This document shows positions 17,477 to 22,099 of a DNA stretch of 39,504 nucleotides, piece by piece. A model generated the notes under the pieces. It saw nothing but the letters and a program-made list of their open reading frames with translations, made no database searches and was not told the origin of the DNA. Within the stretch, counting starts at the first letter, position 1. Each line of letters opens with the position of its first letter. A program made the translations under genes and the position numbers. This DNA is from a bacterium (GTDB lineage Bacteria; Bacillota; Clostridia; Lachnospirales; Lachnospiraceae). Location of the stretch: positions 1 to 39,504 of the forward strand of contig JAQYOU010000045.1 of the NCBI GenBank assembly GCA_028727105.1, in the 5' to 3' direction.

Positions 17477-18172
17477 TCACATATTCTTATGTTTGCATAT
17501 TAATTCTTTTTTTGCCAAAGGTTTAAGATAATTCTTCTTCAGTGTTCTTTCATCTCCAAAGAAAAACCTTTCCGATTTGGATAATGTATGATTTTCTACT
17601 TTCAATTCGGTAAGTTTTAATGTACAAATGAGATCTGCAACTTGAAACAGCCTATAATCTGCCGGAATCACCTTGCGAAATTCCACATTCTCCAACAATG
17701 CATTAAAAACAGATGATAAAATTCTGGTCACTTCAATCTGTCCATTATCATAATAAACCTTTATAACGTCAAAACTGCAAAAGTAATTGTAATTATCACG
17801 AATAAATGCAGACAACTGTTTACTAACCTTCCCTGCAGCTTCAACAGAACCCTCAATGTGCTTTTTCTCGATATATATCGATTTAAAGCTAATATCCATG
17901 TGCCTAATGAATGCCATCATCTTCATCAGAATCTTCTGTCTATCCTTTACTGCATATCCACGATATTCTTCCTCTGATCTTATTACTGGGCCAGCATGTA
18001 CACAATGATTTGACCATCCAATGTTATTAAGTTCTCCCTCCAGTGCTTTCAAATCATCTGAAATATCTACATTCTGTTCATGCATTACCATAGAAATAAT
18101 ATAATATGGCGTTCGAAAATCATATTGTCCAAAATCACCGGATTCATCTACAAATATGCTTGGTTCGTTCAT
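17477..18172 (-). CDS. DUF3800 domain protein
   Basis: N-terminal IFVDESGDFGQYDFRTPYYIISMVMHEQ; C-terminal LLENVEFRKVIPADYRLFQVADLICTLKLTELK. Start at ATG 18172 preceded by SD GGAGAAA. Confidence 0.85.
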   Translation of the reverse strand: MNEPSIFVDESGDFGQYDFRTPYYIISMVMHEQNVDISDDLKALEGELNNIGWSNHCVHAGPVIRSEEEYRGYAVKDRQKILMKMMAFIRHMDISFKSIYIEKKHIEGSVEAAGKVSKQLSAFIRDNYNYFCSFDVIKVYYDNGQIEVTRILSSVFNALLENVEFRKVIPADYRLFQVADLICTLKLTELKVENHTLSKSERFFFGDERTLKKNYLKPLAKKELICKHKNM

Positions 18173-18189
18173 ACTTTCTCCATAATACA

Positions 18190-18286
18190 AAAATGGCGGG
18201 TGTCTTACCCGCCGTTTGGTGGACCCGGGTCTTTCGACCAGCCCAAATATTTTATGCGTTTACACGCAACAGATTCATATCTGTGC
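18190..18286 (-). ncRNA. Candidate structured leader/sRNA upstream of the DUF3800 gene (four hairpins, last one terminator-like)
   Basis: Minus-strand RNA: ACAGAU-AUGA-AUCUGU; UGCGU-GUAA-ACGCA; UUUGG[..GGUC-GAAA-GACC..]CCAAA; GGCGGGU-AAGAC-ACCCGCC followed by AUUUUUG. Confidence 0.7.
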
Positions 18287-18290
18287 CTTT

Positions 18291-18319
18291 ATTATATGCT
18301 ATTATTTTCAAAAAATCAA
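18291..18319 (-). promoter_or_regulatory. Promoter driving the structured RNA/DUF3800 unit
   Basis: TTGATT-N17-TATAAT on the minus strand; predicted +1 at about 18285, at the first hairpin. Confidence 0.65.
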
Positions 18320-18485
18320 TATGAGCTCCAAAAAAATTCTTTCAATCATATACCTAATAAAAAATCGCTGTCTAAGGTAAAACATGCCCTGCCTATATTC
18401 TGACGCAGCCAGAACAAATCTGCTCTCATTCAATAAATCCATCGTTGTTATTTTTCCGGAACTGATCAATACCTCCACAGCTCCG

Positions 18486-18560
18486 GTTCCTACTGACATT
18501 CTACCTGTGAATCCACCCTGCGTATAGGTATTTTTTCAACGATATGTGTCAATTTTTCAG
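18486..18560 (-). repeat. ~75-bp dispersed repeat, copy 1
   Basis: GTTCCTACTGACATTCTACCTGTGAAT-(variable ~18-20 nt)-TTTTTCAACGATATGTGTCAATTTTTCAG, shared with 22024-22099. Confidence 0.9.
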
Positions 18561-18566
18561 CCAGAC

Positions 18567-18809
18567 CTAAACAGTCAGATTGATATCTCCATAAATCATA
18601 ACACGCAGAATTCCTAACAAAATCAGATGAGTCGGATAATACAGATAGAAAAACCACTTCATCCATTTTGCTTTTCCACGCTCGCCATTGTAAAAATACA
18701 ACACCGGATACACCATCAGAACACCAACCAACTCTAACGCATAGGTTTTGCTCACAAACAGGAATGAAACCAGTCCGTACCAGAAGGTCCACTGGATAAT
18801 CTGCCACAC
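18567..18809 (-). pseudogene. TraX family protein, C-terminal remnant
   Basis: KWMKWFFYLYYPTHLILLGILRVMIYGDINL is TraX-like; N-terminal part missing, abutting the upstream gene. Confidence 0.72.
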
Positions 18810-19195: not shown

Positions 19196-19284
19196 TTACA
19201 TTCGCGCCTTCCTCTGAAATTCTGATACTGCTTTCTCAATCTCATCCGCACGCTTGCTTCGCCTGCGCAAATGAATGACCAATT

Positions 19285-20102: not shown

Positions 20103-20408
20103 TCAAACATAATCAAAAATGCCCTGAATCGCGTCCGTAATATTCATAATGTCCGGCATATGTATGTGATCGATTTTAGAATAACCTCTGGCTCTCAGAT
20201 CCAGTAATGCCAGCTTTTCACAATGAACGTATCCATCCATACTTCCTGCCTTCACAAAAATACGTAACGCACCGTCTTCTCCATTTTTTGAAATTGGACA
20301 TCCGATAACCTCGCCCGTCTGATTGAAAAAGTCCTTGCTTGTAACAAGCACAGGACTTTTTATATTTTCCACTTTTATAATATCTCCCTGATGTATCGGT
20401 TCCTTCAT
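20103..20408 (-). CDS. mazF: MazF/PemK-type toxin
   Basis: MKEPIHQGDIIKVENIKSPVLVTSKDFFNQTGEVIGCPIS; C-terminal LDLRARGYSKID; overlaps the MazE-like gene by 4 nt. Confidence 0.82.
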   Translation of the reverse strand: MKEPIHQGDIIKVENIKSPVLVTSKDFFNQTGEVIGCPISKNGEDGALRIFVKAGSMDGYVHCEKLALLDLRARGYSKIDHIHMPDIMNITDAIQGIFDYV

Positions 20409-20650
20409 TCCCAGACCTCTCTTCCCATCTGCTCGCCCCAGTCATATTCGCCGTCTAAGTCTAACTGTCCTCCAAACTCAGCAGCTCTTTCTTCCAATGT
20501 TTTATGTCTGAATGGTTTCATCAGAATAATCATTCCATCAGAAATCTGAACATCCAAAATATCATCGATCGCTATGTTTGCTTTCTGCAGATCATCTTTC
20601 GAAATCCGGATCCCCTGACTATTCCCCCAAGGTTTCACCTGTGCCTGCAT
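20405..20650 (-). CDS. mazE: MazE/AbrB-type antitoxin
   Basis: MQAQVKPWGNSQGIRISKDDLQKANIAIDDILDVQISDGMIILMK; start at ATG 20650 within the longer supplied ORF. Confidence 0.87.
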   Translation of the reverse strand: MQAQVKPWGNSQGIRISKDDLQKANIAIDDILDVQISDGMIILMKPFRHKTLEERAAEFGGQLDLDGEYDWGEQMGREVWE

Positions 20651-20669
20651 ATAAACACCTCCATTTTCA

Positions 20670-20688
20670 GTATATACATAGTATATAC
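20670..20688. promoter_or_regulatory. Paired palindromic operator GTATATAC-ATA-GTATATAC upstream of mazEF
   Basis: Two identical 8-bp palindromes separated by 3 bp, 20 bp upstream of the mazE start. Confidence 0.65.
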
Positions 20689-20829
20689 CGTCAAATATAC
20701 AAATGCAACTTTGAATTTGTTCCCTTTTCCAAACATACCTTACGATCAGCATAATGCAAATTGCTGTAAGCCAAACAGCAATCTTGATCAAAGGGATCAT
20801 TACCAAAAATCCCCCTGTTGCTACATTTA

Positions 20830-21709: not shown

Positions 21710-22037
21710 TCTTATGTACCTCCCCGGTCTCAAAATTTAGCGGCAATTCATAATATAGAAAATCCGTCCAACAGGTATTCTCTGCATATAGGTTCTGCTT
21801 TCCCCGATACGCAAACCCAAGTTTTTCATACATATGCTGCGCCGGAATGTTTGATGCCAGCGTATCCAGCCGGATCGCTCTCTTTCCTTTTTCCATTGCC
21901 AGCGAAACGATTGCTTCCATCATTCTTTTTGATATACCTTTTCCCTGATATTCAGGAGTTACTGTAAGAAGATGCAAGGAAGCCACCTCCTCATCATTCA
22001 GATTCTGACTCCTCACATTTCCTGTTCCTACTGACAT
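21672..22037 (-). pseudogene. GNAT acetyltransferase, apparently N-terminally truncated at the dispersed repeat
   Basis: EEVASLHLLTVTPEYQGKGISKRMMEAIVSLAMEKGKRAIRLDTLASNIPAQHMYEKLGF contains the acetyl-CoA motif but only ~20 aa precede it; the start codon lies inside repeat copy 2. Confidence 0.6.
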
Positions 22038-22099
22038 TCTACCTGTGAATTCTTACCATGTATAGACATATTTTTCAACGATATGTGTCAATTTTTCAG
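22024..22099 (-). repeat. ~75-bp dispersed repeat, copy 2
   Basis: Same flanking blocks as copy 1 with a diverged central segment. Confidence 0.9.

Follow-up and report, generated by a model that had tools for sequence, protein, structure and literature searches.

On the minus strand of the window (i.e., the complete 39,504-nucleotide stretch of Lachnospiraceae DNA that was analyzed), a promoter, a structured RNA, a terminator, and a gene for a DUF3800 protein follow one another. The sigma-70-type promoter TTGATT-N17-TATAAT reported in the first-pass annotation was recovered by promoter prediction at positions 18291 to 18319 (-), and its predicted +1 (near 18284) falls, as had been claimed, at the base of the first hairpin. 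Folding indicates two hairpins at the 5′ end (ACAGAU/AUCUGU and UGCGU/ACGCA; 18255 to 18284) that form a variable 5′ domain, followed by the conserved RNA core or handle, UGGGCUGGUC-GAAA-GACC-CG-GGUCCA-CC (18218 to 18245), which was defined by an Rfam match and by covariation. After a spacer of only a few nucleotides, the 3′ hairpin GGCGGGU/ACCCGCC (18195 to 18213) serves both as a structural element of the RNA and as the stem of an intrinsic terminator, as indicated by folding, covariation, and a terminator call that, together with the subsequent AUUUUU tract (18189 to 18194), bears out the earlier proposal for this hairpin. A Shine-Dalgarno sequence GGAG (18178 to 18181) precedes the start codon of the DUF3800 gene (start 18172, stop 17477), which encodes a putative nuclease or toxin of 231 amino acids. 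The stretch from promoter to terminator is predicted to yield a small, roughly 95-nt RNA. Promoter-like sites also lie upstream of the RNA in relatives: for the promoter and structure comparisons, 93 RNA sites were gathered from whole genomes, and in 51% of them the best sigma-70-like site exceeded its own 95th shuffle percentile. Each locus contains one core, with no tandem repeats.

The first-pass annotation had linked the unit to the DUF3800 RNA motifs, which proved correct: positions 18198 to 18245 (-) match the Rfam family DUF3800-XI (RF02975) with 68.5 bits (E value of 2.9e-13, threshold of 37.8), the sole Rfam match across the whole window. The gene assigned to Pfam PF12686 starts 26 nt past the last position of the RF02975 model, and thus the RNA adjoins the DUF3800 gene. 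To our knowledge, no function has been assigned to DUF3800 RNA motifs so far, and the window itself adds one more member to an already known family with unassigned function.

Folding of positions 18173 to 18290 (-) yielded four hairpins with a z score of -3.52, and none of 200 shuffled sequences was as stable. Of the stems described earlier, ACAGAU/AUCUGU, UGCGU/ACGCA, the GAAA-capped handle, and GGCGGGU/ACCCGCC were retained, whereas the outer stem UUUGG/CCAAA was rejected, as it depends on an AAA after CCACC that varies among relatives; the conserved outer stem is UGGGCU/GGUCCA (18245 to 18240 with 18225 to 18220). The covariance analysis that had been called for revealed 52 alignment cells altered on both sides of a pair for the whole structure, compared to 11.5 in shuffles. 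Specifically, in the alignment of host and phage copies, all eight pairs of the 3′ hairpin showed changes on both sides, and the proposed structure was 92% paired, compared to 36 to 59% for slid structures. The Rfam model leaves this hairpin unpaired, its consensus structure pairing the core stem alone. A 5′ hairpin of variable sequence located no more than 5 nt from the core was present in 63% of the protein-paired relatives, but in only 9% of shuffles. As judged from these alignments, the RNA extends beyond the Rfam model: a 5′ hairpin abuts its core, and its 3′ hairpin covaries. Conservation of the hairpin set beside other DUF3800 genes is partial: core and 3′ hairpin are general, whereas the pair of 5′ hairpins seen in the window represents one variant, found also in G623, G709, G595, G481, G473_C33, and G483. 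At five loci (L194, L195, L208, L212, and L082), two successive hairpins lie between core and gene.

The protein encoded by the window belongs to Pfam DUF3800 (PF12686; 39.5 bits, cut-off of 21). Its AlphaFold2 model is of high confidence (pLDDT of 91.7), and the best Foldseek matches in the PDB were RNases HII (E value of 3.6e-5, probability of 1.00, TM score of about 0.4), with no credible sequence relatives of the protein in the PDB. The residues invariant in the clade alignments include D9, E10, Y140-Y141-D142, Q177, and D180. Domain score, RNase H fold, and conserved acidic residues thus all agree with Pfam DUF3800, and the model agrees with earlier publications that ascribe an RNase H fold to DUF3800 (PMC10910872, PMC12669027). 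On the basis of this model, the protein is regarded as an RNase HII-like putative nuclease.

Several features surround the unit. A gene for a PemK/MazF-like toxin lies 2 kb upstream, at positions 20103 to 20806 (-) (Pfam PemK_toxin, 39.4 bits), and is preceded by an open reading frame (ORF) that by eye resembles a MazE-like antitoxin. A short repeat at 18425 to 18560 recurs at 22014 to 22099 of this genome and in several genomes of the same genus, and an ORF fragment at 18567 to 18809 (-) resembles by eye the C terminus of a membrane protein of the TraX-like type, which suggests a rearranged region beside the unit. In a contig from the same genus (G777, L142), window position 19276 is joined to 17320, so that the unit is missing; the contig also lacks the neighboring ACT gene and was not accepted as a clean empty site, and the junction is consequently taken to reflect patchiness without precise insertion. 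The genome of the window contains a second DUF3800-XI RNA (G000:C82:15708-15755 (-), L112; 61.6 bits) with no DUF3800 gene nearby, convergent with a gene named AbiEii-like from its sequence. Orphan RNAs occur near AbiE-like genes in three cases (G000_C82, G432, and G681), and no functional link was drawn because their orientations are inconsistent.

To describe the association of RNA and protein, a profile of the clade (A1) was searched against 397 related genomes. This yielded 35 near-full-length clade proteins, two of which contain stop codons, and the RNA lies just upstream in all 35 cases. Of these, 32 were found by the Rfam scan and one is split over two overlapping contigs; the remaining two are diverged copies that were recognized by eye. 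For 98 further loci (80 from genomes and 18 viral), chosen by similarity to the protein clade of the window, the core or a recognizable variant was seen by eye upstream of every gene; scripted register scoring accepted 86 of them. Conversely, about half of the 93 RNA sites lack a DUF3800 ORF, several DUF3800 genes are broken beside an intact RNA, and the full-length protein is absent from 27 of 60 RNA-bearing genomes. The association is thus one-way: the protein is obligately paired with the RNA, and the RNA often occurs without the protein. The two are also co-inherited, since distances between core RNAs correlate with distances between proteins (Mantel rho of 0.74, reached in 0 of 999 permutations), whereas those of the upstream flank do not (rho of -0.15). 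The unit was found in Lachnospiraceae, Treponema, Fibrobacter, Flexilinea, Saccharibacteria, Gastranaerophilales, and other metagenome-assembled genomes, a list that binning errors could inflate; by phylum, it spans Bacillota, Spirochaetota, Fibrobacterota, Saccharibacteria, and others, mostly from rumen and gut. On plasmids, the search gave a single distant match, in a Collinsella record.

In viral contigs, 29 stretches matched the core pattern, compared to one match for the reversed pattern. The phage set was compiled from the pattern matches after removal of those bearing DUF3800 and addition of cow-rumen-3-type matches; it comprises 29 loci, among which 24 different core sequences occur, and one or two loci (such as L285) look more like prophage than like contigs of large phages. 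The RNA core is encoded by about 20 distinct phage contigs, many of them larger than 100 kb, whose records contain no DUF3800 gene. PF12686 was detected in none of 30 whole viral records with an orphan RNA (including one near-duplicate, L291), which are linear fragments, so that complete phages may differ. RF02975 was found in 28 of these 30 records at an E value of ≤0.01 and above the cut-off in 19, and one 176-kb record has two RNA copies. Among the INPHARED phage genomes, BLAST gave no match to the RNA and one partial match to DUF3800. In three more distant cases (L272, L273, and L275), viral-contig DUF3800 genes are preceded by a related, diverged RNA that the Rfam model may miss.

The phage copies retain the core and the 3′ hairpin, mostly without the terminator U-tract, which follows the hairpin in 46 of 47 protein-paired host sites and 38 of 45 chromosomal orphans, but in only 7 of 20 distinct phage copies (P = 4e-8 for phage versus paired host sites). 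Since the hairpin is kept mostly without this tract, it matters beyond termination. The abutting 5′ hairpin, present in 63% of host pairs, was found in none of the 24 phage copies. Note that the core is more conserved than its flanks in some phage pairs (L288/L290) and less so in others (L301/L307); as the pairs disagree, selection on the phage copies is not claimed from this comparison.

These observations bear on two explanations in which the RNA is not the partner of the protein in trans. According to the first, it would be an attenuator or protein-binding autoregulatory leader that acts solely on the DUF3800 gene by controlling terminator read-through. The position of the RNA in the 5′ leader and the near-universal terminator at paired sites fit this idea; nevertheless, a pure cis-attenuator, as considered earlier, is disfavored and appears improbable, because both phages and about half of the chromosomal sites have the RNA without a DUF3800 gene and the phage cores mostly lack the U-tract as well. 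According to the second, the core would be an RNA element of general use (e.g., for stabilization or processing, or, in phages, for packaging or within tRNA arrays) that was recruited by the DUF3800 locus without being the partner of the protein. The neighbors of the phage copies include genes for terminase, portal protein, PhoH, and anaerobic ribonucleotide reductase, and the copies often lie in tRNA arrays (with as many as 22 tRNAs in the portion that was read) or just upstream of the terminase and portal genes; given these locations, they could serve the phage itself in some other way. A generic element would, however, not be expected to accompany every protein of the clade and to diverge in step with it, and this explanation is considered even less probable than the first.

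Four phage contigs of the set match another Rfam family, cow-rumen-3 (RF03083), with 96 to 144 bits. The 3′ end of cow-rumen-3 is a near-identical DUF3800-XI core with an altered inner stem, whereas its long, separate 5′ domain sets the family apart. The RNA of the window reaches 25.4 bits against this model via the common 3′ core and, with a gathering threshold of 86.7, is not a member. cow-rumen-3 was found in none of the 397 genomes of the same family. No mention of it was found in the literature searched, which left out most subscription papers, so that the link may already have been reported. RNAs of the Rfam family cow-rumen-4 share phage contigs with cow-rumen-3 (L279:5788-5855, L310:3075-3136, and L311:8247-8307), and L278 also has a tmRNA.

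Taken together, we favor, with a probability of roughly 55%, the view that the unit is a toxin-antitoxin or abortive-infection module of RNA and protein that resembles type III systems and for which phages encode antitoxin mimics. An RNA-neutralized anti-phage toxin with counter-defense by RNA mimics is suggested by the promoter, the excess of RNA that the terminator would produce, the nuclease gene, the lack of proteins without RNA, the frequent orphan RNAs, and the RNA-only phages. In the mechanism that we infer, a single promoter would produce the structured RNA of about 95 nt, mostly ending at its own 3′ hairpin terminator, and occasional read-through would supply a little DUF3800 protein. 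The abundant RNA would bind the RNase HII-like nuclease via the conserved core and the 3′ hairpin and keep this presumed toxin inactive; if phage infection halted transcription in the host or led to breakdown of the RNA, the nuclease would be freed, and growth would stop. Some chromosomes would retain the RNA alone, and large phages would carry core copies that mimic the antitoxin and hold the nuclease in its bound state, which would amount to an anti-defense role. Weighing against a module of this kind, no PADLOC model matched the unit, the phage copies may, as noted above, have a use for the phage alone, and orphan RNAs that lack a protein could also be trans-acting RNAs with a different role.

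The first-pass annotation had likened the unit to type III toxin-antitoxin and RNA-guided or RNA-regulated defense modules. The former idea is strengthened by the obligate pairing, the orphan RNAs, and the RNA-only phage copies, whereas RNA-guided action was abandoned as a leading idea, because the variable 5′ segment itself folds into a hairpin, mostly abutting the core, and leaves no free segment of guide length; the constant scaffold with an unstructured guide that characterizes an OMEGA- or CRISPR-like reading is not seen. The principal rival proposal is that of an RNA-dependent effector: the nuclease would require the RNA as an obligatory cofactor that joins and activates it, as in RNA-dependent defense enzymes, and the phage copies would be inactive decoys competing for the protein. 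It accounts equally for the one-way association and the co-inheritance, and phage copies devoid of the abutting 5′ hairpin are as expected for binding without activation. Since the variable region is a hairpin, not a guide-like single strand, and since both the terminator-made RNA excess and the broken proteins beside intact RNAs fit an antitoxin better, we regard this proposal as rather unlikely, although inhibition and activation of the protein by the RNA cannot be separated by sequence data.

A broader version of the favored toxin-antitoxin reading, which we advance more tentatively, holds that DUF3800-XI loci in general are phage defense systems in which the RNA checks an RNase HII-like toxin, and that large gut and rumen phages encode mimics (including the cow-rumen-3 family), often in tRNA arrays, as RNA-based anti-defense. 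The phage copies suggest a concrete role for the DUF3800-XI RNA, i.e., mimicry of a defense RNA, the orphan Rfam family cow-rumen-3 gains a likely context, and the minimal RNA that the protein should recognize is now defined. If the proposal is true, the RNase HII-like fold joins the RNA-neutralized toxins, and a class of RNA anti-defense exists in large phages.

Among known systems, Rfam DUF3800-XI with Pfam DUF3800 has the same RNA core, protein family, and arrangement as the window; this RNA was reportedly described by Weinberg et al. in 2017. The 5′ hairpin, the covarying 3′ hairpin, the orphan and phage copies, and the proposed function go beyond the Rfam record. The type III toxin-antitoxin systems ToxIN, CptIN, and TenpIN resemble the unit in their order of promoter, same-strand RNA, terminator, and putative nuclease gene. 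Type III toxins have the ToxN fold, whereas the protein of the window is predicted to be RNase HII-like instead of adopting the ToxN/CptN/TenpN fold; moreover, type III antitoxins are tandem repeats, and the single RNA unit of the window counts against the module reading to that extent. With tandem repeats and ToxN fold absent, the unit would work like a canonical type III system without being one. Neutralization by RNA is possible for unrelated folds, as illustrated by AbiF/RCd22, in which an RNA neutralizes an adjacent protein of the Abi_2 fold (PMC12373285), and by avcID, in which it neutralizes an adjacent deaminase (PMC10511110); both have an RNA beside an unrelated toxin, as proposed for the window, but differ from it in protein fold and RNA. 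On the phage side, PhiTE carries pseudo-ToxI, an experimentally known RNA mimic directed against ToxIN (PMC3475682), and in the case of RNA anti-CRISPRs (Racrs), phages encode a solitary copy of a host defense RNA element (PMC10651486); Racrs mimic CRISPR repeats, whereas the phages described here carry the DUF3800-XI core.
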